A DNA stretch of 64,000 nt from Myxococcota bacterium (GCA_963169045.1 CAUJDF010000029.1:1-64000); one strand, 5' to 3'; shown: positions 26,993 to 42,241, numbered from the stretch's first letter. The notes: a model not told the origin generated them from the letters alone. Made by a program: numbers and translations.

Positions 26993-27676
26993 CTATACGC
27001 CCTCGTCGAAGCGGTAGCCCACGCCGTGGACGGTGCGGATGATCTCCGGGTGGCGCGGATCGCGCTCGATGCGCCGCCGCAGCTTCGACACGTGCTGGTC
27101 GAGCGTGCGGCTGTTCGGCAGGTGGTCGTAGCCCCAGCACTCGCGGAAGAAGGCGTCGCGGTCCACGACGCGCCCGCGCTCCCGATGCAGCAGCTCGAGG
27201 ATGCGGACGTCGCGCAGGCTCAGGTCGATGACCTCGTCGCCGCGGCGCGCCCGCAGCTCCGCCGGCGCGATCTCGAGGTCGATCATGCGAAAGGTGCGCG
27301 GCGCCGCCGGCGCCTTCAGGCAGCGCCGTGTCACCGCGCGGATGCGCGCGATGACCTCCTTCACCCCGAAGGGCTTCTGGATGTAATCGTCGCCGCCGAG
27401 CTCGAGGCCCAGCACGCGATCGATCTCTTCGGAGCGCGCGCTGAGGAAGAGGATCGGCACGTCCGCGTTCGCCCGCCGGATCTCCCGACACACGTCGTAC
27501 CCGTTGACTCGAGGCATCATGATGTCGAGCAGCACGATGTCGGGCGTCTCGGCCCGGAACACATCGAGCGCCGCGCGTCCGTCCGGCGCGACCACCGGGC
27601 GGTAGCCCTCGGCCTCGAGGATCTCGGCGAGGCCGCGCGCGATGTTCGGGTCGTCCTCGGCGATGAGCACCTTCAT
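26993..27676 (-). CDS. OmpR/PhoB-family response regulator
   Basis: A 227-residue DNA-binding regulator. The receiver domain has the acidic pair EDD (7-9), phosphoacceptor Asp51 (IVLLDIMMPR) and Lys101 (YIQKPFG). The winged-helix C-terminal domain has VIDLSLRDVRILELLHRERG and the recognition region SRTLDQHVSKLRRRI, ending TVHGVGYRFDEGV. All key residues are present. Its start overlaps the kinase stop by ATGA, so it is the kinase's partner. It is the third gene of a VWA protein-kinase-regulator operon. Confidence 0.97.
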   Translation of the reverse strand: MKVLIAEDDPNIARGLAEILEAEGYRPVVAPDGRAALDVFRAETPDIVLLDIMMPRVNGYDVCREIRRANADVPILFLSARSEEIDRVLGLELGGDDYIQKPFGVKEVIARIRAVTRRCLKAPAAPRTFRMIDLEIAPAELRARRGDEVIDLSLRDVRILELLHRERGRVVDRDAFFRECWGYDHLPNSRTLDQHVSKLRRRIERDPRHPEIIRTVHGVGYRFDEGV

Positions 27677-29169
27677 GGGATCCCCAACGTGATTTCGAAC
27701 GTGGCGCCGTCGGGCGAGGGGCGCAGGACGAGGTCGCCGCCGTGCAGGCGGGCGAGCTCGCGGGCGATGGTGAGGCCGATGCCGGTGCCGGTGGCGCCCT
27801 CGGTCGAGTCATCGACGCGCTCGAACGGCGCGAACACACGCTCGCGCCACGCCGGCGGGATGCCCGGCCCGCCATCGGCGACGGTGATCGTCGTGCGTCC
27901 GTCGCGCTGGCGCGTGGTCACGTCGAGGCGCCCGCCGGCGGCGGCGTACTTCTCCACGTTGCTCACGAGGTTGCCGAGGATCTGGCCGAGCGCGTCGGCG
28001 TCGACCGGCACGGTGTCCGGCGCGCCGGCGTCGAAGCCCACCGCGATGCCACGGGCGGCGAGCGCGGGGCCGAAGCCTTCGAGCACGTCGCGGACGATGG
28101 CATCCACGACGTGCGGCGCCGGGTGCAGGCGCTCGGCGCGGCGCTGCTGGCGCGCGAACGTGAGCAGGTTGCCGATCAGGCGGCTGAGGCGGCGGCTCTC
28201 GGCGACGATGACGCCGAGGTGGCGCCCGGCGCGCTCGTCCTCGGGGTCGAGGTCCTCGGCGAGCAGCTCGGCGTACAGGCGAATGTTGGTGAGCGGCGTC
28301 TTCAGCTCGTGGGACACGCGGTTGACGAAGCTGACGCGGCGCGCGGCCTCGGAGAGCGCGCGGGCGCTCTCGCGGCCGAAGAAGACGGCGAGGCCGACGA
28401 GGGCGAGGCCGGCGGCGGCGAGGCCGGCCCACAGGTTGAAGTCCACGAGCCCTCCGTCGGCCGGGAAGCGCGCCCACCGGCGCAGGCGCCAGGCGTCGAG
28501 CGGGGCGGCGAGCGCCCGGTCGATCGGCGTGCCGTCCGCGGCGTCGCCCCACGCGTAGAGCACCTCGCCGCGCTCGTCGAGCAGCGCGGTGCGCGCCTCC
28601 TCGTCGGCGGTGGCCGGGAGCGCGGCGATGACGTCGGCGAGCAGCCGCGTCCGGTCGAGCTCGACGCCGACGAGGCGGCCGTCGGCGAGGCGGCGCCAGT
28701 AGAGGAGCTGCAGGCCGCGGCCCCAATACCAGGTCGTCCAACCCGACGCCGTCGGCGCCGTCACGCCCTCGGCCGCGGGCGGGGCGAGCGCGCCGCCGGC
28801 CCACAGCTCGCGCGTGCGCTCGACGAAGGCCTGCTCGGCCTCGCTGCGCTCCCGCGGCGGAAACGCGAGCCTGCCCGACGGGTCGAGCACCAGCGCGTGC
28901 CGGGCGTGGACCTCGCGGCGCAGGCGGGCGCGCAGCGCCTCGGCGTCCTGCGGCACCTCGTCGGTCAGCGCGCGGATGCCGCGCTCCCGCTCGGTCACGA
29001 GGCGCGCGATCGTGCCGTCCACTTCGCGCAGGCGCTCTTCGGCCACCCGCGTGATCTGCCGGCGCACGCCCTCGGCCTGGTCGCGCGCGAGGCGCACCCC
29101 GACCCAGGCCAGCGCGAGCAGCGGGACCACCGTCAGGAGCACCAGCGCGACGAGGAGCTTCGGTCGCAA
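27673..29169 (-). CDS. Membrane sensor histidine kinase
   Basis: About 498 residues. Start taken at TTG 29169, five bases after the VWA gene stop, because it places the first membrane helix (LLVALVLLTVVPLLALAWVG) at the N-terminus; no ribosome site is visible and coupling is likely. A ~220-residue periplasmic sensor region (TTWYWGRGLQLLYW) lies between that helix and a second at ~247-264 (AGLAAAGLALVGLAVFF). The HisKA motif is VSHELKTPLTNIRLYAE, with the phospho-His at about 287. The ATPase has NLVSNVEKYA, VADGGPGIP and GTGIGLTIA. Complete orthodox kinase; signal unknown. Confidence 0.94.
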   Translation of the reverse strand: MRPKLLVALVLLTVVPLLALAWVGVRLARDQAEGVRRQITRVAEERLREVDGTIARLVTERERGIRALTDEVPQDAEALRARLRREVHARHALVLDPSGRLAFPPRERSEAEQAFVERTRELWAGGALAPPAAEGVTAPTASGWTTWYWGRGLQLLYWRRLADGRLVGVELDRTRLLADVIAALPATADEEARTALLDERGEVLYAWGDAADGTPIDRALAAPLDAWRLRRWARFPADGGLVDFNLWAGLAAAGLALVGLAVFFGRESARALSEAARRVSFVNRVSHELKTPLTNIRLYAELLAEDLDPEDERAGRHLGVIVAESRRLSRLIGNLLTFARQQRRAERLHPAPHVVDAIVRDVLEGFGPALAARGIAVGFDAGAPDTVPVDADALGQILGNLVSNVEKYAAAGGRLDVTTRQRDGRTTITVADGGPGIPPAWRERVFAPFERVDDSTEGATGTGIGLTIARELARLHGGDLVLRPSPDGATFEITLGIP

Positions 29170-29174
29170 GGCGG

Positions 29175-30479
29175 TCAGTACATCTGCTGCATGTCGAGCT
29201 CGATCTGGCGCTTGCGCATCGTCTTGCGCTGCTTGTTCCAGTCCTTGGACTCGAGATTCTGGGCGTCCTGGACGTTGGACTGGCCGAGCTGCTTCAGCGC
29301 CGGCGCCCGGTAGCGCGCGGAGTTCTCGTCGAGCCACGCCGCGTTCTTGCGCAGCAGGTCGCGCGCCTCTTCGACCCGACCCTGGTCGCGCAGCGACAGC
29401 GCCATCTCGTTCTGGTCGTTGGCGACGAGCTGCACCGCCGACACGATGACCTCGCGGTGCGCGCGCGCCTCCACGAGCGCCGGATCGGTCGTGTACTCGG
29501 CGCGCACGACCGCCTGTTGCTGCTCGGTGGCGCGCGTCGCCATGTTGCCGTAGCTCACGTCCACCTGGGCGACGTCGCGCGAGGTGTGCGGCTGGCCCGC
29601 GGGCAGCTCCACCTCGATCAGGACGAACTGCTCCTGGCGGCCGTACACCTGGTTGAGACTCGTGCGCACGTCGCTGCCGGTGATGTCGGCGCTGCGCCCG
29701 AGCACGCGCACCGGCCGCACGCCCTCCGCGCAGCGGATGTGCAGGTGGACGTCCTGCGCGACCACGGCGACGGCGGTGCCGAGCTCGAGGTCGAAGAAGC
29801 GCGCCAGATCGGACGCGTCCTCGATGAAGGCGTGGTTGCCGTCGCTCCGGCGGGCCAGCTCGACCATGAGGTCCTCATTGTAGTCGAGGCCCAGGCCGAA
29901 GGTCGTGACCGAGATGCCCTCGCGGCCGAGCGACGCGCCGAGCGCCGAGAGGTCGCCGGGCGACGACGGGCCCACGTTGGCGAGGCCGTCCGACAGCAGG
30001 ATCACGCGGTTCACGCGCTGCCGGTCGGCGAACTTGCGCACCTCCTCGGCGCCCTTCGACACGCCGGCGAACAGGGCGGTGTCGCCGCCGGCCGAGATGC
30101 CCTGGATGCCGGCGCGCAGCGTCGACTGGTCCGAGGCCTTGGTGGCCGGGACGACGACGCGCACCGTCGTGTCGTAGGCCACGATCGACACGATGTCGTC
30201 GGGGCGCAGGCGCGCGACGGCGTGCAGCGCCGCCTCCTTCGCCCGCGCCAGCTTGTGGCCGGACATCGAGCCCGACTTGTCGAGCACGATCGCCACGTTG
30301 AGCGGCGGCCGCGGCCCCGCGGTGCCGAGCCCCGTCAGCCCCACCTTGAGCCACGCCGGCTGCTTCAGCCCGGCCACCACCACCGGCGTCCCGAGCCGCG
30401 CGTCCAGCACGACCGCCTGTTGCGCGCACGCCGTTCCCGCGAACAGCAGCAGTGACAACGCCACGAAAACCTTGCGCAT
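29175..30479 (-). CDS. Exported von Willebrand factor A domain protein
   Basis: A 434-residue protein with signal peptide (VFVALSLLLFAGTACAQQ). The N-terminal domain holds an Ig-like strand set, then a VWA domain (~60-240) with an intact MIDAS metal site: DKSGSMSG, a Thr in GDTALFAG and Asp in LLSDGLANVG. The C-terminal ~190 residues are charged and helical (EEARDLLRKNAAWLDENSAR), resembling YfbK-type VWA proteins. GGAGGTGG precedes the ATG at 30479. It is the first gene of an operon with a sensor kinase and a regulator, so it may present a ligand or be a regulated target. Confidence 0.92.
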   Translation of the reverse strand: MRKVFVALSLLLFAGTACAQQAVVLDARLGTPVVVAGLKQPAWLKVGLTGLGTAGPRPPLNVAIVLDKSGSMSGHKLARAKEAALHAVARLRPDDIVSIVAYDTTVRVVVPATKASDQSTLRAGIQGISAGGDTALFAGVSKGAEEVRKFADRQRVNRVILLSDGLANVGPSSPGDLSALGASLGREGISVTTFGLGLDYNEDLMVELARRSDGNHAFIEDASDLARFFDLELGTAVAVVAQDVHLHIRCAEGVRPVRVLGRSADITGSDVRTSLNQVYGRQEQFVLIEVELPAGQPHTSRDVAQVDVSYGNMATRATEQQQAVVRAEYTTDPALVEARAHREVIVSAVQLVANDQNEMALSLRDQGRVEEARDLLRKNAAWLDENSARYRAPALKQLGQSNVQDAQNLESKDWNKQRKTMRKRQIELDMQQMY

Positions 30480-30633: not shown

Positions 30634-31989
30634 TCAGGCGCGCAGCAGGGCGCCGATGGCGGGGACACGCAGGTCCGGGGCGTCGCCGACGCCCACCTCG
30701 TCGAAGAGCGTCTGCAGGACGTGCTCGGGCCTCAGGACCTCGCCCTCGGGCGTCGGCTCGCCCGTCCGCAGGTCGACGGCGGTCGGGCCCATGCCGACGT
30801 CGGTGGAGCGGCCGATGACCTGCCCGCCGCGCACGTTGCCGCCGATGACGAAGCTGGCGTTGGTGAGCGAGTGGTCGCGGCCGCCGCGGTCGTTGAGCAT
30901 CGCGGTGCGGCTGAACTCGCTGAAGCCGACGATGACCGTGTGGTCGAGCCACGAGGTGCCGGTGCCGCGGTACTCGCGGCGCGCCAGATCGCTGACGAGA
31001 CGGGAAACGGCATTGAATCCGCGCATCTGGCGCGGTCCCTGGTCGGTGGACCACTCGGTGAAGTGGGTGTCGAGGCCGCTCGCGACCTCGATGCTGACGC
31101 AGCGGGAGACGCCGCCGGTGATCGCCTGCGCGGCGAAGGCGGCGTGGACCTCGGGCGTGCGCAGGTCGTTGGTGATGCCGTAGTGGTCGCGCAAGGCCGC
31201 CATGGCGTCGGTGCGCGCGGCGAAGTCGAAGAGGCGGTCGTAGCCGCCGCTCACCATGTCGAGGACCTTGCGGCGGGCGGCTTCGGCGGCGCGCCAGAGC
31301 GGCGACTGGCGCGCGCCCTCGCAGTCGGCGGTCTCGGCGAGCGTCTCGCCCACCTGTCGGCGCACGCCGTCCGGGAGGAGCGGCTGCGACGGGCGCAGCG
31401 CGCGCAGCAGATCGGCGACGCTGTCGACCTGCAGGGCGCTGGCGAAGTGGGGCAGGTCGCGGTTGTACGACTCGACGCGCAGCGCGAGGTTCGGGATGGG
31501 CGCGCGCTCGCCGAGGTGAGACGCGAGCCACGTGGCGCCCGAGGAGCCGCGCGCCTGCAGGCCGCTCGGCGGCTTGCCGGTGAGGAAGCGGCGGCGGCCG
31601 ACCTCGTGGGTGAGCGTGTCCATGCTCATGCCGCGGATGACGGCGAGGCGGTCCACGTGCTGGGCGAGCTCGCCGATGTACGGGCCGAAGGTGATGCCCG
31701 CGGGCGTCTCGACGAGGCGCCCGTCGCTGCCCTGCAGCTGGTCGTAGCCCGGCTGGATGCGCGTCGTGCGCAGGTTGCCCTCGTTGAAGCGCCGCGGGTC
31801 GCGCGGGTCGAGGCCCAGCAGGATGTCCCAGCCGCCGTTGAAGTAGCAGAAGACGTAGTGGCGTTCGGGCGCGTCCGGCTGCACCGCCTGCGCGTTCGCG
31901 AGGCGGGCGAGCGAGGAGAGGCCGCCGAACGAGGCGAGGCCGCCGCCGGCGACGAGGATGCCCCGCAGGAAGTCGCGTCGGGTCTGCAT
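30634..31989 (-). CDS. Tat-exported DUF1501 protein
   Basis: A 451-residue protein starting MQTRRDFLRGILVAGGGL, a twin-arginine signal. The body matches the DUF1501 (sulfatase-like, alkaline-phosphatase-fold) family: HYVFCYFNGGWDILLGLDPR, IGELAQHVDRLAVIRGM, a central GLDTHFTEWSTDQG and the end motif TVIVGFSEFSRTAMLNDRGG followed by RDHSLTNASFVIGG. Catalytic activity is unproven for the family. GAGGGGAC lies upstream of the ATG at 31989. It is the last gene of a four-gene operon with two cytochrome-containing exported proteins; DUF1501 genes normally accompany such partners. Confidence 0.93.
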   Translation of the reverse strand: MQTRRDFLRGILVAGGGLASFGGLSSLARLANAQAVQPDAPERHYVFCYFNGGWDILLGLDPRDPRRFNEGNLRTTRIQPGYDQLQGSDGRLVETPAGITFGPYIGELAQHVDRLAVIRGMSMDTLTHEVGRRRFLTGKPPSGLQARGSSGATWLASHLGERAPIPNLALRVESYNRDLPHFASALQVDSVADLLRALRPSQPLLPDGVRRQVGETLAETADCEGARQSPLWRAAEAARRKVLDMVSGGYDRLFDFAARTDAMAALRDHYGITNDLRTPEVHAAFAAQAITGGVSRCVSIEVASGLDTHFTEWSTDQGPRQMRGFNAVSRLVSDLARREYRGTGTSWLDHTVIVGFSEFSRTAMLNDRGGRDHSLTNASFVIGGNVRGGQVIGRSTDVGMGPTAVDLRTGEPTPEGEVLRPEHVLQTLFDEVGVGDAPDLRVPAIGALLRA

Positions 31990-31999
31990 CGGCGTCCCC

Positions 32000-32971
32000 T
32001 CAGTACGAGTAGAAATCGGGGTGGGAGAACAGGCCGACGCAGACCGCGTTCCAGCCGAGGAGCGGGTCGCCGCCGACGAAGGCGGCGGAGCGGAACAGCC
32101 AGCGCCACGGGGCGAGCGTCGGGCCCGCGGCCTCCTCGGGGACGAGGCGCCCGTGGAAGCGCGCGAGCAGGCGGCGCAGGTTGGCGTCGACGGCCTCCGG
32201 CGCGAAGTCGTAGTCGTCGTCGGGGCCGACGTCGTGCAGGAGCACGGCCGTGCCCGCGGCGACATCGCGCTCGATCACGCGGGCGCAGACGGCGCGCGCC
32301 GCGTCGTCCAGGAACTTCAGGAACAGCGCCGAGGGCTCGAGGTTCTCGGTGGTGATCTGGATGTAGTCGGGCTTGCCGAGCGTGGCGGCGAGCTCGACGA
32401 AGAGGTTCACGTCGACGTTGCCCCGGCGCTCCGTCCAGCCGATGCCGTCGCTGACCTGGCGCATGGCGGCGTCGAGCTGGTCGAGGTTCATGCGGCGGCG
32501 GGCGCGGGGCGCGGGCTCGTGCGCCGGCGCGGGGGCCGGCGCGGGGGCCAGGTCGGCGGGGGCGCCGGGGTCGACCTCGACGACGACCGGCGGGCGGGGC
32601 GGCGCGGCGTCCGCGGCGCCGGCGTCGGCCTCCTCGGGCGGTCGCGCGCTGCAGTCACCGCCGGGGGGCGCCTCCGTCCCGGGACCGCAGGGCGCGGCGG
32701 CGTCGGGGACCGGGGCGGCGTCGGGCGCGGGGGCCGCGGCGTCGGGGGCGGCGGTGGCCGCGTCGGGCGCGGGGGCCGCGGCGTCGGGGGCGGCGGTGGC
32801 CGCGTCGGTCGCAGGGGCCGCGGCGTCGGGGGCGGCGACCGCGCCGTCGGGCGGGCTCGGCGCCGCCAGGTTCGCGGCGTCGGCCGACCGGTTGCCGGCG
32901 AGCTCCGGCCGGCGGCCCTCTTCGCAGGCGGCGAGCGCCAGGGCGGCGAACAGCAGGGCGCGGCGGTTCAT
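32000..32971 (-). CDS. Lipoprotein with Asp-Ala-Pro linker and 13-residue Cys motif
   Basis: A 323-residue exported protein. Lipobox LALAAC (Cys16), then an Asp-Ala-Ala/Ala-Pro linker to about residue 95. A short Cys pair CGPGTEAPPGGDC (95-107) follows, then a Pro-rich spacer and a ~165-residue helical domain (MNLDQLDAAMRQVSDGIGW to the C-terminus). Its phrase ALFLKFLDDAARAVCARVI and WLFRSAAFVGGDPLLGW resemble the accessory lipoproteins encoded beside DUF1501 genes. GGAGGGTCC precedes the ATG, which overlaps the upstream stop (ATGA). The next gene starts 11 bases after its stop. No enzymatic motif recognised. Confidence 0.87.
   Translation of the reverse strand: MNRRALLFAALALAACEEGRRPELAGNRSADAANLAAPSPPDGAVAAPDAAAPATDAATAAPDAAAPAPDAATAAPDAAAPAPDAAPVPDAAAPCGPGTEAPPGGDCSARPPEEADAGAADAAPPRPPVVVEVDPGAPADLAPAPAPAPAHEPAPRARRRMNLDQLDAAMRQVSDGIGWTERRGNVDVNLFVELAATLGKPDYIQITTENLEPSALFLKFLDDAARAVCARVIERDVAAGTAVLLHDVGPDDDYDFAPEAVDANLRRLLARFHGRLVPEEAAGPTLAPWRWLFRSAAFVGGDPLLGWNAVCVGLFSHPDFYSY
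32700..32835 (-). repeat. Coding tandem repeat (~42-bp unit, Asp-Ala-Pro linker)
   Basis: Near-identical ~42-base units encode PDAAAPAPDAATAA repeats in the linker of the lipoprotein gene at 32000-32971. The nucleotide identity between units is high, so the linker length may vary between strains. Confidence 0.7.
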
Positions 32972-34521
32972 CGGACCCTCCGGTAGCGCGCGTCGGTGAC
33001 GATGGCGCGCACCAGCCAGCGGTAGCGGTACCCGTGGGCGACGAAGCCGCGCGCGAGCTCGTCGAGCCACGCGCGGTCGTCGGCGCCGGTCACGTCGCGG
33101 CCGAGGAGCCACTCGGCGGCGCGGCGCGCGATGCAGGCGGGCAGGCGCCCGTCGGCGACGGCGGTGAGCGCGAGCAGGCGCGGGCCGCGCTCCACGTGGC
33201 GCACGTGGTCCTCGCGGCGGAACTCGTAGGCGCGGAGCATCCCGAGGAACGGCTCTTCGGCTTCGCTGAGCGCCCGGGTGACGTAGAAGTCGCGGCACTC
33301 GGCGCTGCAGGCGGTGCCGCGCAGGGCGCAGAGGCGGCAGTCCTCGCGCTGCGGCGGGAAGCGCGCCGGATCGAGCCAGGCGAAGCCCTGCTCCGCCCAG
33401 CGGCCCCAGTGCGCGGCGGCCGGCTCGAGCAGCGCGTGGCAGTACTTGCAGCCGGCGCGCGCCTGCAGGTCGGGGTCGAGCGCGCTCGCCTCGTCGGCGA
33501 CGGGCAGACCACCGTCCGGCGGCTGGAAGGGGCTGCACAGGAAGGCGTCGAAGAAGCGGTTGGCGCGGGCGCGGTTCGTCTGGAAGCGCAGCAGCCAGGC
33601 CGGGCGCGTGAGCAGGCCGGCGTGCTCGGCCGGCAGCGCGATCTCGACCCAGCGGTCGCGGTCCGTGAAGGCCAGGTCCGGCAGACGGCGCGCGTCGAGC
33701 GGCGCCGGCTCGAACGCGAAGCCGCGCGGCAGGCCCGTCTGGTACTTATAGAAGTACGTGAGCGGCCCGTTGACGAGCTCGCGGCGCGTCTCGAAGAGCT
33801 CGGTGTACGGGCGGTCCTCGCGGACGAGCGCATACAGGACGCGGTCGACCGATTCGCCGAGCGCCTCGACGACCGGGCGGTGGCTGGCGCCGCTGAAGCA
33901 CCAGCGCAGGTCCGGACCGCAACCGCACGCGGCGTCGGCGTGGCCGGCGAGCGTGCCGCAGTCGGTGCCGGTCGGCGAGACCTCGTTCGCCTGGGCGTCG
34001 AAGGCGCAGACGCGCAGCGTGAGCGCGGGATCCCAGTACGGCCGCACCTCCACCCAGCCCTCGCGCCGGGCGCCGTCCTCGCCGGCGCGCGTCAGGATGC
34101 GGCCGTCGTCGCCGAAGCGCGCCGGCTCGTCGAGGCACGGCACGATCTGCCCGCGGTACATGCGCGCGAGGTTGCGCCGGAAGTACACGCCCCCGTTGCG
34201 CTCGAGGCCCGAGTTGACGGCCAGCAGCGACAGGTTGGTGAGGTTGTTCCACAGCAGGGCGCGGTGGCGGCGCACGACCTGCCCGGCGAACGCGTCGGTG
34301 TCGAGCCACGCGTCGACGAAGGCCTCGATCGTGCCCTCCGCGTCGTCGTCGAGCGCCGCGAGCTCGTCCGCGGTGGGCAGGGTGCCGCGCAGGTCGAGGC
34401 TGAGCGCGCGCAGGTGGCGCTGCGGGTCGAGCTCGACGGCGTCGGGCGGGCAGCGCTCGGCCTCCTCTGCGGCGGCGGGGCCGGCGAGCAGGAGCGGGAG
34501 GAGGAGGGTGGGGCGAATCAT
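32968..34521 (-). CDS. Secreted single-CxxCH cytochrome-like protein (DUF1588-like), operon partner of DUF1501
   Basis: A 517-residue protein with signal peptide (MIRPTLLLPLLLAGPAAAEE). Early text LRALSLDLRGTLPTADELAA and TDAFAGQVVRRHRALLWNNL follows the pattern of DUF1549/DUF1588 proteins of Planctomycetota and Myxococcota. A later segment RANRFFDAFLCSPFQPPDGG precedes a single heme site CKYCH and LLEPAAAHWGRWAEQG. Cys pairs elsewhere (CGCG, CRLC) may form disulfides. Both ends overlap neighbours by ATGA, so expression is tightly linked. Role unknown; a surface redox or polymer-processing complex with DUF1501 is the usual guess. Confidence 0.83.
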   Translation of the reverse strand: MIRPTLLLPLLLAGPAAAEEAERCPPDAVELDPQRHLRALSLDLRGTLPTADELAALDDDAEGTIEAFVDAWLDTDAFAGQVVRRHRALLWNNLTNLSLLAVNSGLERNGGVYFRRNLARMYRGQIVPCLDEPARFGDDGRILTRAGEDGARREGWVEVRPYWDPALTLRVCAFDAQANEVSPTGTDCGTLAGHADAACGCGPDLRWCFSGASHRPVVEALGESVDRVLYALVREDRPYTELFETRRELVNGPLTYFYKYQTGLPRGFAFEPAPLDARRLPDLAFTDRDRWVEIALPAEHAGLLTRPAWLLRFQTNRARANRFFDAFLCSPFQPPDGGLPVADEASALDPDLQARAGCKYCHALLEPAAAHWGRWAEQGFAWLDPARFPPQREDCRLCALRGTACSAECRDFYVTRALSEAEEPFLGMLRAYEFRREDHVRHVERGPRLLALTAVADGRLPACIARRAAEWLLGRDVTGADDRAWLDELARGFVAHGYRYRWLVRAIVTDARYRRVR

Positions 34522-36251
34522 GGCCACGACTCCGGGAAGCCCGCGGCGCGCCAGGCTTCGATGCGGTCGATGTCTGCGGCTCCGAGGGGCGGGTTCGGCG
34601 CGAGCGGCATGCGGCGGGCGCGCACGGCCGCCAGGATGCGGTCGATCTCGGCGCGCCAGGACGCGGACGTCTCGAGTCGGTGCGCGTACCCGCGGGGACC
34701 GTGGCACGCGTCGCAGTGGGCCGCATAGAGGGGCTGGACGTCGGCCTCCCAGGTGGGCGGCCCGACGAGGCGGACGCTGAAGCGGCGGCGGGCGCGCGCA
34801 CGCTCGCCGTCGCGCCAGGTGACCGCGATCTCGAGCGCATGGGGACCGTCGCCGAGCGCGGCCGGGTCGAGCGCCCATGTCCAGCCGGCGGCGAGCGCGA
34901 AGGGCGCGGCGCCGTCGAGCGAGAGGGTGACGGCGTCGACGTTCTCCGGCTCGGAGGGCCGCACCTCGAGGACGGCGGCGGCGGCGAGCGCCTCGCCGTC
35001 GCGCACGCCGGCGACGTCGAGGTGGCGGCCTGGATGGACGCGGAAGAGGCCCTCGGGGCTGGCCACGAGCACGGCGCCGCCGGCGTCCGGGGCGAGCGTG
35101 GCGGGCGGGGGGACGCCCTCCACGGGGCGGAAGCGGCCATCGCGGGCCTGCCAGAGGCCGTCCGCGGCCGCGAGCCACAGGTCGGGCACGCCGGGGGCCG
35201 CGGCGAGGTCGCGCACCGCGACCGGGAGGGGGATCGGGTCGGGATCGGCGGCGCGGTACAGCGCGCCGTCGACGACCACCCAGGCCTGGCCGGCGCCGTC
35301 GACGGCGAGGGCGGCGACGGCGCCGGCGCCTTCACGGACCGGCCAGGCGCGCAGGCCGCCGCCCGGGCACGCGTCCGGAGCGCAGTCGGCGATCGCGTAC
35401 ACCGCGTCTCCGGCGGCGACCCAGAGCGCGGCGTCGCTCTCCAGGTGCGGCCCGAGGGCGAAGCGCGCGTCGGCGACGGGCAGGCCGCCGGCGCGGACGG
35501 CGTGGAGCCGGCCGGCGCGCCAGCGGTGCAGGCCGTCGGCGGCGCCGAGCCACAGGTCGCCCTCCGGGTGGGTGCGCAGGGCGACGACGGCGCGGACGTG
35601 GGCATCGAGGGGCGAGCGGACGAGCGCGCCGTCGCGGATCACGAACAGACCGGCGTCGCCGGCGACGAGGTCGACCTCGGGCGCGGCGGCGCGGAGGGCG
35701 CCGGCGTCGCCGCCGAGCGTCTCGGGCGCGGCGCCCTCGCGCGCGACGCGGACGAGGCCGGCGGGCGTGTCGGCGAGGAAGCCGCCGCCGGGGAGCGCGG
35801 CGGCGAAGGCGACCGGGCCGTCGAGGAGGCGCTGCGGCGTCACCGCGCGGGGCGGATCGACGGGCGGCTCGGGCGGCGGCGTTTCGCAGCCGCCACCGGG
35901 CCGCGGTCCGACGCCTGCGGGGCAGGGCGCGGCGTCGGGCGCGGGGGGGGCGGCGTCCGGGACGTCCGGCGCAGCGGCGTCCGCGACTTCGCCGCCGTCG
36001 GAGGTCGCCGCGTCGGCGCCTGCGCGCGGTTGCGCGCCGCAATCCCCGTCGGGGGGCGGCTCCGTTCCGGAACCGCAGGGCGTGGCGTCCGCGTCGGCCT
36101 CGGCGGCGTCCGCGCCGACGTCGGACGCGTCGCCAAACGGCGCCGCGTCGGGGCCGAGCGAGACGGTCTCGGGCGCCCCGCACGCGATCAACAGCGCGAG
36201 CGCGCCCCAGAGGGCGCCCCGTCTCGCGCGCGGTGCACGTGCCCCGACCAT
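34518..36251 (-). CDS. Propeller lipoprotein with C-terminal c-type cytochrome domain
   Basis: A 577-residue lipoprotein: lipobox LLIAC (Cys24), Asp-Ala linker, and two copies of a 13-residue Cys motif, CGSGTEPPPDGDC (59-71) and CPAGVGPRPGGGC (110-122). The middle ~300 residues hold repeated blades such as VVALRTHPEGDLWLGAADGL and DLWLAAADGLWQARDG, like the ligand-reading propellers of two-component sensors. After an Ig-like part, the C-terminus has one heme site CDACH and MPLAPNPPLGAADIDRIEAW, typical of DUF1588-adjacent cytochromes. First gene of a four-gene operon; a candidate promoter lies 174-202 bases upstream. Confidence 0.88.
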   Translation of the reverse strand: MVGARAPRARRGALWGALALLIACGAPETVSLGPDAAPFGDASDVGADAAEADADATPCGSGTEPPPDGDCGAQPRAGADAATSDGGEVADAAAPDVPDAAPPAPDAAPCPAGVGPRPGGGCETPPPEPPVDPPRAVTPQRLLDGPVAFAAALPGGGFLADTPAGLVRVAREGAAPETLGGDAGALRAAAPEVDLVAGDAGLFVIRDGALVRSPLDAHVRAVVALRTHPEGDLWLGAADGLHRWRAGRLHAVRAGGLPVADARFALGPHLESDAALWVAAGDAVYAIADCAPDACPGGGLRAWPVREGAGAVAALAVDGAGQAWVVVDGALYRAADPDPIPLPVAVRDLAAAPGVPDLWLAAADGLWQARDGRFRPVEGVPPPATLAPDAGGAVLVASPEGLFRVHPGRHLDVAGVRDGEALAAAAVLEVRPSEPENVDAVTLSLDGAAPFALAAGWTWALDPAALGDGPHALEIAVTWRDGERARARRRFSVRLVGPPTWEADVQPLYAAHCDACHGPRGYAHRLETSASWRAEIDRILAAVRARRMPLAPNPPLGAADIDRIEAWRAAGFPESWP

Positions 36252-36424
36252 CGGCTCGCTCGCCGTCGCGACGCCCGGTGCTCCCCCCGGCGTCGCAGCG
36301 GAGCTGGTAGGCCCCGCCGAGAAGATGCGAAGGACGCGCGAGCCCCCCTGATGCCCGCGCGCCCGGGCGCGCCCGGCGGGCCGCTCCCCCCCGGGCCGGC
36401 CGCGTCGATTTCGCGCTTGTTGAA

Positions 36425-36453
36425 AGATTACACAAGGCGCGCCACATTGTCAG
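36425..36453 (-). promoter_or_regulatory. Candidate sigma-70-like promoter for the cytochrome/DUF1501 operon
   Basis: The 332-base gap between divergent genes is G+C-rich except here. On the minus strand CTGACA, a 17-base spacer and TAATCT read like -35/-10 boxes. The -35 is five of six, the -10 about three of six. It would give a leader of about 165 bases before the ATG at 36251. I saw nothing else recognisable in 36252-36583. Confidence 0.35.
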
Positions 36454-36583
36454 CAAGTTCGCCACGAGGGGGGCGGCGGCGGTCAGGGGGTGGCCGTCGC
36501 CGGGCCGGCGGACGGGAGCCGTGCCGGGGTCGACGACGCGCAGGGGAGCGGCGGCGGCCGGGGCACGCGCGGAGTGTCGCCCC

Positions 36584-39500
36584 ATGCGCCTGGTCGCCCT
36601 CCTTGCCGTCGCCGCGCTCGCCGGCTGCGACGCCACCGACGTCGGAAGCGGCGCGAGCGCGCCCGACGCGGTGGTCTTCGTCCCCGACGCCCTCCCGGCG
36701 GCGGACGCGGCTGCGCCGTCGGGCGACGCCCGGCCCGGCGCGGACGCGGCGGCGACGTGCGCCGACGGGACCTCGCCCCGCCCTGGCGGCGAATGCGCGG
36801 CGCCGCCGGACGCGGGGGCCGCCGACGCGTCGCCGGACACGGGCGTGGCCGACGCGTCGCCGGACGCAGGGCCGGACACGGGCGTGGCCGACGCAGCGCC
36901 GGACGCGACCGTCCCCGACGCGGCGGCCGACGCGGAGGCGCCCGACGCGGCGACGCCCGACGCGACCGATCCGGGCCCGCCGCCCTGCGACCCGCCGCTG
37001 GCGCTCGAGCCGCCGGAGGCCGTGGCCCGCGCCTTCGATCTCGTCACGTTCCACGCCGACGGCGGCACCGGCGCGTGGCGCTTCACCCTGGCCGACGACA
37101 CCTCCGGCGCGCTCCTCAATCACGCGACCGGCGCCTACCTGGCCGGCGAGACCGTCGGCGGCGTCGACCGCGTGCGCCTCACCGACGCCCGCTGCGCCGG
37201 CGAGGCGGTCGCCACCGTCCGCGTCGTGCCCGACATGGTCGTGCGCCCGCGCGAGATCGAGGTCGCCTTCGGCGCGCACTTCACCTTCGCGCCCACGCTC
37301 GGGTCCGGCGAGTACGCCTACGAGATGGTCGAGGTCGGCGCCGGCGGGCGGATCGAGCCCGACGGCACGTACACCGCCGGGATGGCCGCCGGCAGCGACG
37401 TCGTCCGGGTGCGCGACGCGCGCACCGGCCAGTCCGAGGACGCGCTGGTGCGCGTCGCCGCCGCCGCGCCGCTCCGCCCGCGCCCGCCGGCCCTCTTCCT
37501 CCCCGTGGGCGCGCGGCACCCGCTCGAGGTGGCGGGCGGCTCCGGCCACTTCGAGGCCACCGTCGAGGGCGACGGCGTGCGCTACGACGCGGGCGCGGTC
37601 GTCGCCGAGGCCCCCGGGACGGCGGTCGTCGCCCTGCGTGACGCCTTCACCGGCCAGCGCACCGCCGTCACGGTCACCGCCGTGCCGGCGCAGCAGGCGC
37701 CGCTCCCGCGCGTCGGCGACGCCTCGTCGTCGAGCACCGCCCTCGGCCCCGGCGACCTGGACGGCGACGGCTTCGCCGACGCGCTGCTCGGCATGCCCGA
37801 GGCGGACCTCGGCGGCGTCGACGCCGGCGCCGTGTACGTCTACCGCGGCGGCCCGGCCGGACTGCGCCCGGAGCCGGCGCTGGTCCTCGGCACGGGCGAG
37901 CGTCGCGCCGGCTTCGGCCGCGCGCTCGCCGTCGCGGACTTCGACGGCGACGGGCGGCGCGACCTCGCCGTCGGGGCCGCCGGCGCCGACATCGCCACCA
38001 GCGACACGGGCGCCGTCTACCTCTACCCCGGCGTCGACGGCGGCCTCTTCGCCGTCGAGCCGGCGCGCGTCCTCGCCGCGCCCAACGCCGGCGACCAGCT
38101 CGGCTTCGCGCTCGCCGCCTGCGACTTCAACGGCGACGGCCGCGCCGACCTCGCCGCCACCGCCCTGCGCGCCGAGGACCGCGACCGCACGCCCCAAGCG
38201 ACGAACCAGGGCGGCGTCTTCGTGTTCCTCGGGTACGAGGATGGCCTGCTCGCGCGGCCCGACCGCGTCGTGTGGGGGGAGGCGCCCGACGCGAACGGGA
38301 CGTGGGACGCCGTCGCCAACCTCGGGCTGGGCTCCGCCCTCGCCGCGGGCGACGTCGACGGCGACGGCCTCTGCGACCTCGTCGCCGGCGCCGCCGACTT
38401 CGCCGCCGGGCCCGGTCGCAGCCGCGACGGCGCGGTGTTCGTCTTCCCCGGCGTCGCGCCGGACGACGTCGCGCCGGGGGGCGTCCGCCCGCTGCCCGCG
38501 CGGGCCTGGGCCGGCCTGCATCCCGACGACAACACTTCGGAATTCGGCCGCCGCCTCGCCGTCGCCGATCTCGACGGCGACGGCCTCGCCGAGGTGGTCG
38601 CCGGCCAGTACCGCCACGACCGCGACGCGAACCGCCGCGACGCCGGCGCCGTGCGCGTGTTCGCCGGCGCGCCGTTCGGCGGCGAGGACGCGCCGGCGCT
38701 CCTCCCTGCCGAGAGCGCCGCCTGGACGTGGGCCGGCGAGGCCGGCTTCGACAACGTCGGCTGGGACCTCTCGGTGGCCGACGTCACCGGCGACGGCCTG
38801 CCCGACGTCGTGAGCGCCGACTGGGCCGACGAGGTGGCGGGCGGCGGGGGCGACGCCGGCGTGATCCGCGCGTTCGCCGCCGTGGCGGGCGGATGGCCCG
38901 CGCTCGCGCCGGTGGCCGTCCGGGCGGGCGGCGCCGCGGGCGACCGCCTCGGCGAGTCGGTCGTCGTCCTGGGCGACGCGGATGGCGACGGCCGCGCCGA
39001 TCTGCTCGCGCACGCGGGCCGCAACGACGCGCTCGGTCCCGATGTGGGCCGACCCTTCTTCCTCGCGGGCGATCCGGAGATCGCCCCCGTCGCGCTCGAC
39101 ATCCCCGCCGACCCCACCGCCGGCGGCCGCCTCGGCTGGACTGCCGCCGTCGTCGGCGACGCGGACGGCGACGGCCGCGCGGACCTGGTGCTCGGGGCGC
39201 CCTTCCTGAACACCGCCCGCGGCGGGGCGCGCACCGGCGCCGCCTTCGTCTATCGGGGCGGAGAGGCCGGGTTCTCGGTCGCGCCCGACCTCGACCTCAC
39301 CGAGGTGCCGGGACAGACCGCCTCGGACCTGTTCGGCTACGCGGTCGCGCCCGCGGGCGCCTTCGACGGCGACGACGACCCCGACTACGCGCTCGCCGCG
39401 CGCGCCGACGAGGCGCCGTCCGCGCTGGGCAACGACTACGTCGCCGATCCCGACTGCGCGACGCGGCGGAGCAACGGCGGCGGCGTGCACGTGTTCCGCG

Positions 39501-40501
39501 GGCGGACGGATCTGGCGCTGCCGGCGCGGCCCGGCTTCGTCTACTTCGCGCCCGAGAACAACGTGAACCTCCAGACCGTCGCCGGCGGCGCGGACGTGGA
39601 CGGCGACGGCTACGACGACCTGATCGCCGGCTCGTATCAGTGGAACGTCGACGGCCGCAGCGAGGCGGGCGGCGTGGTCGTCGTCCGCGGCCGCGGTCCG
39701 GCGCCCGACGGCCGGATCCGCTTGATCTGCGACGCGATCTTTCGTCACTCCGGCGCCGCCGCCTCGGACCGCGTCGGCTGGAGCGTCGCCGCCCTGGGCG
39801 ACGTGGACGGCGACGGCTGCGACGAGGTGGCGTTCGGCGCGCCGCTCGAGAGCGCGGGCGGCGTGACGCGCCAGGGCGCGGTGCGCGTCCTCTTCGGATG
39901 GGGCGGCCCGGGCTGCCGGGCGGCGCCCGCGTTGCTCCACCTCGCGCCCGGCGAGGCCAACGCGCAGGCCGGCCACGCGCTGGCGGCGGGCGACCTCGAC
40001 GGCGACGGCGTGCCCGAGCTCGTCGTCGGCGCCGTCAACCACGCGCGCGACCGGCAGGCCGTGGGGGGCGCCTGGGTGGTGACCGGCCGCTTCATGGCGG
40101 GCCTGACCCCCGATCCCGTGGGGACGACGACGTGGCAGCCGTTCACCCCGCCCGGTCAGGCGGCGTGGATCGTCGAGGGCCGGGTGAGCGGGGAGCGCTT
40201 CGGCAGCTCGGTGGCGGTCCTGCCCGGCGGCCGCTTCGCGGTCGGCGCGCCGCTCGGCGCCTACAGCGGGGTGCCCCAGGTCGGCGGCGCGCGCGTGTAC
40301 CGCGTCGAACGGGGGGCGCTCGACCCCGAGCCTGTCGCGGCGCTCGTCGGCGAGACGTGGCGGCCGGGCGACCGCCTCGGCGAGGCCCTCGCCGCCGGCG
40401 TCCTCGGCGGTCGCCCCGTCCTCGTCGTCGGCGGCTACGACGGCAGCGGCGCCGGCGTCGACAGCGGCTCCGCGTACGTCCTCACCTTCGAGCCGAACTG
40501 A
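36584..40501 (+). CDS. Large FG-GAP (integrin-alpha-like) repeat lipoprotein
   Basis: A 1305-residue exported protein. MRLVALLAVAALAGC gives the lipobox LAGC (Cys15), followed by an Asp-Ala linker that holds the 13-residue Cys pair CADGTSPRPGGEC (59-71). Two Ig/bacterial-adhesin-like segments lie at ~140-360. The remaining ~930 residues carry about twelve FG-GAP units with DxDGDG-type calcium loops (VADFDGDGRRDLAVGAAGAD, GGADVDGDGYDDLIAGSY), forming one or two propellers. ATG at 36584 follows GGAG. Likely a surface adhesin or binding platform; no protease or hydrolase motif seen. Confidence 0.93.
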   Translation: MRLVALLAVAALAGCDATDVGSGASAPDAVVFVPDALPAADAAAPSGDARPGADAAATCADGTSPRPGGECAAPPDAGAADASPDTGVADASPDAGPDTGVADAAPDATVPDAAADAEAPDAATPDATDPGPPPCDPPLALEPPEAVARAFDLVTFHADGGTGAWRFTLADDTSGALLNHATGAYLAGETVGGVDRVRLTDARCAGEAVATVRVVPDMVVRPREIEVAFGAHFTFAPTLGSGEYAYEMVEVGAGGRIEPDGTYTAGMAAGSDVVRVRDARTGQSEDALVRVAAAAPLRPRPPALFLPVGARHPLEVAGGSGHFEATVEGDGVRYDAGAVVAEAPGTAVVALRDAFTGQRTAVTVTAVPAQQAPLPRVGDASSSSTALGPGDLDGDGFADALLGMPEADLGGVDAGAVYVYRGGPAGLRPEPALVLGTGERRAGFGRALAVADFDGDGRRDLAVGAAGADIATSDTGAVYLYPGVDGGLFAVEPARVLAAPNAGDQLGFALAACDFNGDGRADLAATALRAEDRDRTPQATNQGGVFVFLGYEDGLLARPDRVVWGEAPDANGTWDAVANLGLGSALAAGDVDGDGLCDLVAGAADFAAGPGRSRDGAVFVFPGVAPDDVAPGGVRPLPARAWAGLHPDDNTSEFGRRLAVADLDGDGLAEVVAGQYRHDRDANRRDAGAVRVFAGAPFGGEDAPALLPAESAAWTWAGEAGFDNVGWDLSVADVTGDGLPDVVSADWADEVAGGGGDAGVIRAFAAVAGGWPALAPVAVRAGGAAGDRLGESVVVLGDADGDGRADLLAHAGRNDALGPDVGRPFFLAGDPEIAPVALDIPADPTAGGRLGWTAAVVGDADGDGRADLVLGAPFLNTARGGARTGAAFVYRGGEAGFSVAPDLDLTEVPGQTASDLFGYAVAPAGAFDGDDDPDYALAARADEAPSALGNDYVADPDCATRRSNGGGVHVFRGRTDLALPARPGFVYFAPENNVNLQTVAGGADVDGDGYDDLIAGSYQWNVDGRSEAGGVVVVRGRGPAPDGRIRLICDAIFRHSGAAASDRVGWSVAALGDVDGDGCDEVAFGAPLESAGGVTRQGAVRVLFGWGGPGCRAAPALLHLAPGEANAQAGHALAAGDLDGDGVPELVVGAVNHARDRQAVGGAWVVTGRFMAGLTPDPVGTTTWQPFTPPGQAAWIVEGRVSGERFGSSVAVLPGGRFAVGAPLGAYSGVPQVGGARVYRVERGALDPEPVAALVGETWRPGDRLGEALAAGVLGGRPVLVVGGYDGSGAGVDSGSAYVLTFEPN

Positions 40502-40618: not shown

Positions 40619-42241
40619 TCAGTTCACGGCACAGGCGACGTCGGCGCAGCGTTCCTCGATGCACGCGAAGCACGCCTGGGGGTCGGCGCGATCCGCGCAG
40701 GCGGGGCAGCGCTCGCTGGCGCAGAAGTTGTTGGCGAGGAGCTCGGCGGACTGGTCGAAGGCCGTCTGCTCCGCGCAGGCGCACGTGCAGTCGCGGCCCT
40801 CGAGGACGCACTGGCCCTCGCAGGCCGCGGCCTCGGCGCAAGCGAGCGCACCCGACGGCGGCTCGCCGCACTGCTGCACGAATGCGCAGGCGGCGACGGC
40901 GTCGCATTCGTCCGGCGACTGCCGCCCGCACTCGAGGAACGCCGGGGAGAGGAGGCAACCGTCGTGGCACAGCGGCAGGTCGAGCCCGGTGCACGTCCGC
41001 ATGCGGGCGCAGGCGCGCAGGCAGACCGCGTCGTCGCCGTCCTCGCCCCCGGTCGGCTGCGTGCGATCGAGCAGCACCGACACCTCGCCCGTGTGCGCGT
41101 TCGCCACCGCGACGTCGGGGCGGCCGTCGCCGTCGAAGTCCCCGCCCGCCAGGGCGCTCGCCGTGTCGAACATGCCGAAGAACAGGTCGGGCGCGCGCAC
41201 GCGGCCCGCGCCGTCGCCGCGCAGCACCGTCACCGCGCCCGGCCCCGCGCCGAACGTGACGAGCGCCGCGAGGTCGAGGTGGCCGTCGCCGTCGTAGTCG
41301 CCGGTGGCGAGCGCGATCGGGACGCCGCCGCGCCCGCGGTCCACGGCGACGAAGCGCTCGAACGCCAGCGTCGCGCCGCGGCCGATCGCCGCCGCGTCCG
41401 CGCCGATCGCCAGCTCCGGCGCGCCGTCGCCGTCGAAGTCGCCGGTGGCGAGCGCCTGCACCTCGGGGCCGGGGATCATCGGCCCCTCGGCGGGCGCCGC
41501 GAAGGTGCCGTCCCCCGCGCCCGCCAGGACCGCGACGTATCCGGCGCGGTCGAGGCCGCCGCCGGCGACGAGGTCCAGGTCGCCGTCGCGGTCCACGTCG
41601 AGCGCGGCGAGCGAAAGCGGCGCGCGGGGCACGGGGACGCGGAGCGGTTGCTGCGCGCCCCCGACGAGCACCGCGATCTGCGGGTCGCCGCGCGACGCCA
41701 CGGCGAGGTCGTCGCCGCCGCGGCCGTCGAGCTGCGCCGCGACGAGCGCGGTCACGTCGGCGCCGGCGTCGAAGACGAGCGGCGCCGCCAGCGCGCCCGC
41801 CCCGTCGCCGAGCAGCACCGCCGCGCCGCCCGCGCGCAGCCCGACCGCGACATCGGGGTGTCCGTCGCCGTCGAAGTCGCCGGTGGTCAGCGCGGTCGGC
41901 AGGCCCCCCGCCTCGAAGCGGCGCGCGGCGCCGAACGTGCCGTCGCCGGCGCCGCGCAGCACGACGACGCCCTCGTCGACCGCCTGCTGCGCGCAGGCGA
42001 CGACCAGGTCGAGGTGGCCGTCGCCGTCGAGATCCGCAGCGCCGATGGCGCTCGGCTGTCCGCAGGCCGGGTAGCGGACCTCCGGCGTCAGGAAGAGGGC
42101 CGGCACCCCGCCGCCGGCACCCCCGCCCCCGCCGTCGCCGCCGCCGCCGTCGGCGCCCGGCGGGCCGCCATCCGACGAGCCGGAGCCGCCGTCGTCACAC
42201 CCCACGAGCCACACTGCCGCCACCAGCCACCCGCACCGCAT
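40619..42241 (-). CDS. VCBS/FG-GAP repeat lipoprotein with Cys-rich C-terminus
   Basis: A 540-residue exported protein. Start MRCGWLVAAVWLVGCDD gives lipobox LVGC; a Gly/Asp-rich linker replaces the Asp-Ala linker of its neighbours. About eight propeller repeats follow (IGAADLDGDGHLDLVVACA, TTGDFDGDGHPDVAVGLRAG, LATGDYDGDGHLDLAALV). The last ~120 residues are Cys-rich (CLRACARMRTC..CLLSPAFLECG) and resemble Cys-rich tails on other myxobacterial lipoproteins. GGGGGGGAC precedes the ATG at 42241; an ATG 16 codons upstream is rejected because it lies before the signal. Confidence 0.92.
   Translation of the reverse strand: MRCGWLVAAVWLVGCDDGGSGSSDGGPPGADGGGGDGGGGGAGGGVPALFLTPEVRYPACGQPSAIGAADLDGDGHLDLVVACAQQAVDEGVVVLRGAGDGTFGAARRFEAGGLPTALTTGDFDGDGHPDVAVGLRAGGAAVLLGDGAGALAAPLVFDAGADVTALVAAQLDGRGGDDLAVASRGDPQIAVLVGGAQQPLRVPVPRAPLSLAALDVDRDGDLDLVAGGGLDRAGYVAVLAGAGDGTFAAPAEGPMIPGPEVQALATGDFDGDGAPELAIGADAAAIGRGATLAFERFVAVDRGRGGVPIALATGDYDGDGHLDLAALVTFGAGPGAVTVLRGDGAGRVRAPDLFFGMFDTASALAGGDFDGDGRPDVAVANAHTGEVSVLLDRTQPTGGEDGDDAVCLRACARMRTCTGLDLPLCHDGCLLSPAFLECGRQSPDECDAVAACAFVQQCGEPPSGALACAEAAACEGQCVLEGRDCTCACAEQTAFDQSAELLANNFCASERCPACADRADPQACFACIEERCADVACAVN

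Follow-up and report, generated by a model that had tools for sequence, protein, structure and literature searches.

The window analyzed here is a 64,000-nucleotide stretch of DNA from a Myxococcota bacterium (GCA_963169045.1, CAUJDF010000029.1:1-64000). Four genes lie on its minus strand at positions 30634 to 36251, with ATGA overlaps at the gene 1/gene 2 and gene 2/gene 3 junctions and a gap of 10 bases between genes 3 and 4 (Table 1). An earlier note, made from the sequence alone, had read these genes as a four-gene envelope operon. Its gene coordinates, junctions, and motifs all agree with our analysis, but the unit is larger than the note allowed, as a divergently oriented FG-GAP gene (gene F) had been overlooked. 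The intervening region is presumed to hold the promoters of both transcription units on the basis of gene orientation only, since a scan of the locus for promoters and terminators (sigma-70 consensus) found no site.

Table 1. Features of the locus, in window coordinates
Feature	Position	Strand	Description
Gene 1 (P0001)	34518..36251	-	Lipoprotein: PDA-rich linker, Reg_prop-like beta-propeller, Ig-like segment, C-terminal domain of mono-heme cytochrome c type
Gene 2 (P0002)	32968..34521	-	Putative Sec-exported protein of the PSCyt2/PSD superfamily; one invariant CxxCH (C358-C361-H362), then LEP
Gene 3 (P0003)	32000..32971	-	Lipoprotein; conserved domain of ~160 amino acids, best read as the split-off C-terminal part of the gene 2 protein family
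Gene 4 (P0004)	30634..31989	-	Tat-exported DUF1501 protein; predicted alkaline-phosphatase-superfamily fold
Gene F	36584..40501	+	FG-GAP-repeat lipoprotein of 1305 amino acids, oriented divergently to gene 1; the set's fifth member
Divergent intergenic region	36252..36583	.	332 bp; presumed promoters of both transcription units
Linker motif, gene 3	32651-32689	-	13 residues, CGPGTEAPPGGDC
Linker motif, gene 1	36039-36077	-	13 residues, CGSGTEPPPDGDC
Linker motif, gene F	36758-36796	+	13 residues, CADGTSPRPGGEC

Downstream of the operon on the same strand (26993-30479) lie a VWA protein gene and, as read from the sequence, histidine-kinase-like and response-regulator-like genes, none of which were recognized as conserved neighbors. 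A second FG-GAP protein is encoded tail to tail with gene F (40622-42106, minus strand), and the gene at 4851-7319 (plus strand) specifies a lipoprotein in which FG-GAP repeats follow an astacin metallopeptidase domain.

Each product of the set carries a signal for export. The lipobox of gene 1 reads LIAC and that of gene 3 LAAC (with an invariant Cys16); gene 1 also carries CDACH in its C-terminal part, with RMP after it. Gene 2 combines a Sec signal with CKYCH, and gene 4 has the twin-arginine signal TRRDFL, in agreement with the earlier descriptions of gene 2 as a secreted CxxCH protein and of gene 4 as Tat exported. Gene F likewise has a lipobox, and its FG-GAP score of 199.9 bits, spread over nine stretches, far exceeds the cutoff of 22.1. 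These signals support the predicted envelope location of all products, and the genome has the genes for TatC and for the assembly of cytochrome c. The linkers of the gene 3, gene 1, and gene F lipoproteins share a Cys-flanked motif of 13 residues, which may have arisen by exchange or duplication of a linker or may act as a docking tag. No further copy turned up in the 9-Mb genome with a DNA pattern built from the three, nor did a looser protein pattern match the set's proteins in relatives.

Gene 2 as a query has strong homologues within its own family, order, and class, and 131 of 379 Myxococcota genomes match a gene 3 profile. We read 104 loci with a recognizable gene 3, including that of the window and a few that are copies of one locus; 90 of these are split like that of the window and come nearly all from Myxococcota genomes, and 14 have a one-open-reading-frame (one-ORF) form. 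Relatives were placed by a scan of named genomes in metagenome-assembled genomes labeled Polyangia, Myxococcaceae, and Deltaproteobacteria. The trio of genes 2, 3, and 4 is intact in 89 of the 90 split loci, the remaining locus ending at a contig end, so that the linkage on which the earlier note had made its reading depend is kept in relatives. Their gene order is 1-2-3-4 with junctions mostly of -4 or -1 base; ten split loci (L106, L108, L109, L126, L128, L163, L164, and L167-L169) have the alternative order 1-3-4-2. The recurrence of the set across Myxococcota, the predominance of such junctions, and dN/dS values of 0.13 to 0.47 (from pairs with unsaturated dS only), which indicate purifying selection on the set, argue that it is not a product of chance.

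Gene 1 is present in 70 of the 90 split loci. The FG-GAP gene, which belongs to the set, adjoins it in 48, standing divergent to it in most of the relatives that have this gene and downstream on the same strand in the others. A second trio of genes 2, 3, and 4 is encoded in the genome from which the window comes (L038, G000:C40:48301-51740), with neither gene 1 nor an FG-GAP gene beside it. As both genes are absent from some loci, L038 included, we regard them as accessories rather than essential parts. Clustering of genes in the wider neighborhood gave only scattered families, with no polysaccharide genes or regulators common to the loci: a kinase-like cluster and a few unresolved ORF clusters recur, in 12 loci at most, and some of these clusters are probably shadow frames. 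Glycan-degradation genes were not seen as conserved neighbors. The search for plasmid-borne copies gave a single weak and partial match.

The gene 2 product falls under every curated Pfam cutoff. It scores 25.2 bits against PSCyt2/DUF1549 (PF07583; cutoff, 29.8), and we therefore treat it as a divergent relative of the superfamily and not as a PSCyt2 member; the match to PSD1/DUF1553 (PF07587) reaches 17.9 bits (cutoff, 28.5) over 33 residues only. Among 25 members of the gene 2 family (E values up to 0.1), matches were found to PSCyt2 in 25, PSD2 in 24, PSD1 in 19, PSCyt3 in 14, PSD4 in 12, and DUF1800 in 4. The family is thus a divergent branch that mixes PSCyt2-type and PSCyt3-type features. 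All the homologues listed have CxxCH, for the most part as CxxCHxxLEP in split forms and CxxCHxSLDP in one-ORF forms. The AlphaFold2 model of gene 2, although confident (pLDDT, 84.5), gave only weak matches in Foldseek and VIA-align, to phycobilisome linker domains (best Z, 4.3), which we do not interpret, and sequence searches of the PDB with gene 2 and with DUF1501 returned no meaningful match.

The nature of gene 3 emerges from its distant relatives. A Pfam scan of 24 members of its family found no credible match (PSD5 was hit in one member with E = 0.16), and the weaker matches of the gene 3 profile fall at the C-terminal end of larger ORFs. At the 14 one-ORF loci, segments of gene 2 are followed by the gene 3 domain in an ORF of about 550 to 740 amino acids that adjoins DUF1501. 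Three of these proteins were scanned and scored 35.0 and 33.1 bits for PSCyt2 (cutoff, 29.8) or 33.9 bits for PSD2 (cutoff, 25.8); weak PSD4 and PSCyt3 matches and, once, a PSD5-like match at the C terminus were also found among the one-ORF proteins. It is therefore from the one-ORF relatives, not from Pfam, that gene 3 is identified as the C-terminal portion of a protein that has been split, and genes 2 and 3 are best read as one PSCyt2/PSD-type protein divided in two. The earlier description of gene 3 as a lipoprotein holds for its lipobox, but the 14 one-ORF loci argue against an independent lipoprotein partner. A search for PSD1 in relatives found a single bona fide protein.

A tree of DUF1501 with 101 rows (FastTree, midpoint root) requires one change each for the one-ORF form and for the order 1-3-4-2; the direction of change is not given by this tree, and we infer the split to be the derived state. 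In ten of the 14 one-ORF loci a separate gene nearby encodes a mono-heme cytochrome c with CxxCH and a distal MP, so both architectures have a cytochrome c beside the core. The one-ORF loci (L090-L104) also include a conserved lipoprotein outside known Pfam families in 12 loci (e.g., L095:3652-4542, with no Pfam match).

Both domains proposed earlier for gene 1 proved to be real. Its profile matches the HTCS sensor propellers 4a2l, 3ott, and 3v9f in the PDB, designed propellers, and cytochromes c, and members of its family match Cytochrome_CBB3 (16 of 18), Big_7 (6 of 18), and Reg_prop (3 of 18), although the window protein itself scores 22.9 bits for CBB3 against a cutoff of 27. The propeller, of Reg_prop/YWTD-like type by its repeats, is thus related to Reg_prop sensor propellers. 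The heme motif C513-x-x-C516-H517 and the distal M548-P549 are invariant among 18 sequences, and by its motif the C-terminal domain is assigned to class-I-type mono-heme cytochromes c. CX2-4CH with a distal MP occurs in every complete gene 1 homologue, which makes the fusion of propeller and cytochrome the standard form in relatives and not, as had been supposed, a peculiarity of this genome. Several gene 1 proteins of the 1-3-4-2 branch have CX4CH in place of CX2CH, and heme-less homologues of gene 1 were rejected as a class because the candidates carry this longer motif.

Gene 4 scores 86.8 bits against DUF1501 (PF07394; cutoff, 27). All 24 members of its family match DUF1501, with a weak DUF1552 match as well. 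Its AlphaFold2 model (pLDDT, 82.3) retrieved nucleotide pyrophosphatases (NPP), phosphodiesterases, sulfatases, and phosphatases (Foldseek E values down to 2.7e-6; VIA-align Z up to 20.6), the highest Z belonging to a nucleotide pyrophosphatase aligned over 247 residues with an rmsd of 3.1 Å at 12% identity, and the protein is predicted to have the alkaline-phosphatase-superfamily fold. Residues D55, D307, H309, E358, D372, and H373 are conserved in 91 to 97% of 106 sequences and H128 in 99%, and most DUF1501 proteins outside the set have these site residues too. By its spacing to a following TG, and with the sulfatase signature that we take as a guide, H128 falls at the inferred position of the nucleophile, which is Ser, Thr, or Cys in sulfatases and phosphatases. 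A weak profile alignment pairs SEF of gene 4 with SDH of sulfatases and puts Phe359 at the position of an inferred metal-ligand His. Should this mapping hold, DUF1501 would have other residues in place of the usual nucleophile and of one metal ligand. The family as a whole keeps His at the nucleophile place of the superfamily, as judged by spacing (P0004 residues 55, 128, 307, 309, 358, 359, and 373).

The gene anatomy is well supported, and the analysis also shows the linkage of the set, the one-ORF and two-ORF forms of the gene 2/3 protein, the heme motifs, and the predicted fold of gene 4. The surface redox or polysaccharide-handling complex suggested earlier stays plausible; the substrate and the reaction, as well as the physical complex, heme occupancy, and the electron route, are what we infer in the following model. 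Genes 2 and 3 would be made as two translationally coupled polypeptides, a Sec-exported CxxCH part and a lipid-anchored C-terminal part, and gene 4, with its predicted fold and conserved metal-type pocket, would be their constant partner. Gene 1 would supply the electron carrier, a class-I-type mono-heme cytochrome c carried on a lipid-anchored propeller protein, and the FG-GAP protein a further lipid-anchored binding module. The propellers may bind a ligand outside the cell or in the periplasm, a glycan or another polymer being the likeliest, and on this ligand the core of genes 2, 3, and 4 would perform a redox or redox-coupled modification, with electrons passing between the gene 2 heme and the gene 1 cytochrome and then to the respiratory chain. 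As a whole, this reading, in which a single extracytoplasmic complex of the envelope does redox chemistry on a glycan-like extracellular ligand and heme c carries the electrons, is one we favor tentatively, as possible but short of probable. In its favor are the linkage of the set, the one-ORF form, a cytochrome c in both architectures, the invariant heme motifs, the kinship of the propeller with sensor propellers, the modeled fold of gene 4, the TatC and cytochrome c assembly genes, and purifying selection. Against it stand the lack of glycan-degradation genes among conserved neighbors, the gene 2 scores under the Pfam cutoffs, and the loci without gene 1 or gene F, and the mixed export routes (Sec, Tat, and lipoproteins) do not prove a single location.

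The predicted fold also lends itself to a hydrolase complex, in which DUF1501 would be a sulfatase- or phosphatase-like esterase on sulfated or phosphorylated glycans, genes 1 to 3 and the FG-GAP protein would bind or scaffold, and the hemes would be structural or regulatory. The best structural matches of the model are phosphodiesterases, phosphatases, and sulfatases, the acidic and His residues of the site are conserved, and PSCyt genes often neighbor sulfatases in Verrucomicrobia (PMC5615132). Such a complex does not account for the mono-heme cytochrome c in both architectures, and His128 at the nucleophile place and Phe359 at that of a metal-binding His, a sequence-based placement from a weak alignment, speak against it; we consider it rather unlikely. 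His at the nucleophile place allows a bolder version of the redox complex, in which DUF1501 would pair the alkaline phosphatase fold, with His for the nucleophile, with a nonhydrolytic metal center and form, together with a PSCyt2/PSD heme protein and a dedicated cytochrome c, an unrecognized class of extracytoplasmic oxidoreductases, the split myxobacterial version with propeller and FG-GAP receptors being one branch. We hold this broader proposal to be distinctly improbable.

Two further readings give the heme or the binding folds the leading part. Exported proteins of the set bear two distinct heme-c motifs, one of them on a lipoprotein, and these could point to an extracellular electron conduit or terminal-reductase module, in which cytochrome lipoproteins would exchange electrons with an external acceptor to which the propellers dock. 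With one heme per protein, no multiheme cytochrome or outer membrane porin recognized among the conserved neighbors, and a constant partner of predicted alkaline phosphatase fold, which known electron conduits to our knowledge lack, this seems very unlikely. FG-GAP and propeller domains are typical binding folds, and they might instead build or anchor an extracellular structure in a nonenzymatic matrix or adhesion assembly, for which the PSCyt/DUF1501 core would be a maturation or anchoring device. The lipoboxes on gene 3, gene 1, and gene F fit this, as do the DUF1800-DUF1501 pairs reported beside bacterial chitin-synthase genes (PMC5122149). The strict conservation of the heme ligands, distal Met included, argues for redox use, and the core exists without gene F and gene 1, which leaves such an assembly an improbable candidate. 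In the redox complex that we favor, the myxobacterial version places the electron carrier, heme core, C-terminal piece, predicted alkaline-phosphatase-fold partner, and receptors on single genes in conserved order. Such separated genes are tractable for copurification and knockouts, with the prediction that the products of genes 2 and 3 form a single protein partnered by DUF1501.

PSCyt/PSD genes, PSCyt being short for planctomycete-specific cytochrome, were described from Rhodopirellula and also occur in Verrucomicrobia, beside families of unknown function and in some cases with carbohydrate-binding domains (PMC5615132, PMC2754498). Their proteins abound in Planctomycetes and Verrucomicrobia, Rhodopirellula baltica having 41 copies of PSCyt2 and 41 of PSD1 (PMC2754498), yet their function is entirely unknown (PMC5615132). 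In Planctomycetes, WD40 genes are often found next to DUF1501 (PMC5587647). The earlier note had placed sets of the present kind in both Planctomycetota and Myxococcota. The linkage in Myxococcota stands, and the planctomycetal counterparts are, by the literature, related PSCyt/PSD modules (PMC5615132, PMC2754498); the exact split set was not found in Planctomycetota, a phylum not covered systematically here, nor described in the literature that we found. With the PSCyt2-PSD1 (DUF1549-DUF1553) proteins of Planctomycetes and Verrucomicrobia the locus shares a PSCyt2-like N terminus of gene 2 (25 of 25 members), a DUF1501 partner, export, and an association with heme c, but here the PSD1 match is weak and short, the heme motif is internal and in a PSCyt3-like context, the protein is divided between two genes, a propeller lipoprotein of its own carries the cytochrome, and an FG-GAP partner is present.

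PSCyt3 proteins usually have DUF1552 as their partner. The PSCyt3/PSD2/PSD4/PSD5 (DUF1588/1585/1592/1595) proteins resemble gene 2 in the PSCyt3, PSD2, and PSD4 matches of its family (14, 24, and 12 of 25 members) and in the motif CxxCH-x3-(D/E)P, whereas here the N terminus is PSCyt2-like, gene 4 matches DUF1501 far better than DUF1552, and a PSD5-like match occurs at the C terminus of one one-ORF form. The DUF1800-DUF1501 pair of Proteobacteria likewise joins a Tat-signal DUF1501 to a second protein, and 4 of 25 gene 2 members match DUF1800 weakly, but gene 2 is not DUF1800 by score, and the accessible part of the source describes no heme-c or propeller partner there. From the alkaline phosphatase superfamily (NPP and sulfatases), whose fold its model has, gene 4 differs in its low identity, in the His at the inferred nucleophile position, and in the Phe at one inferred metal-ligand position. 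The locus is a split myxobacterial form of the PSCyt/PSD-DUF1501 modules, which are already known as a kind.
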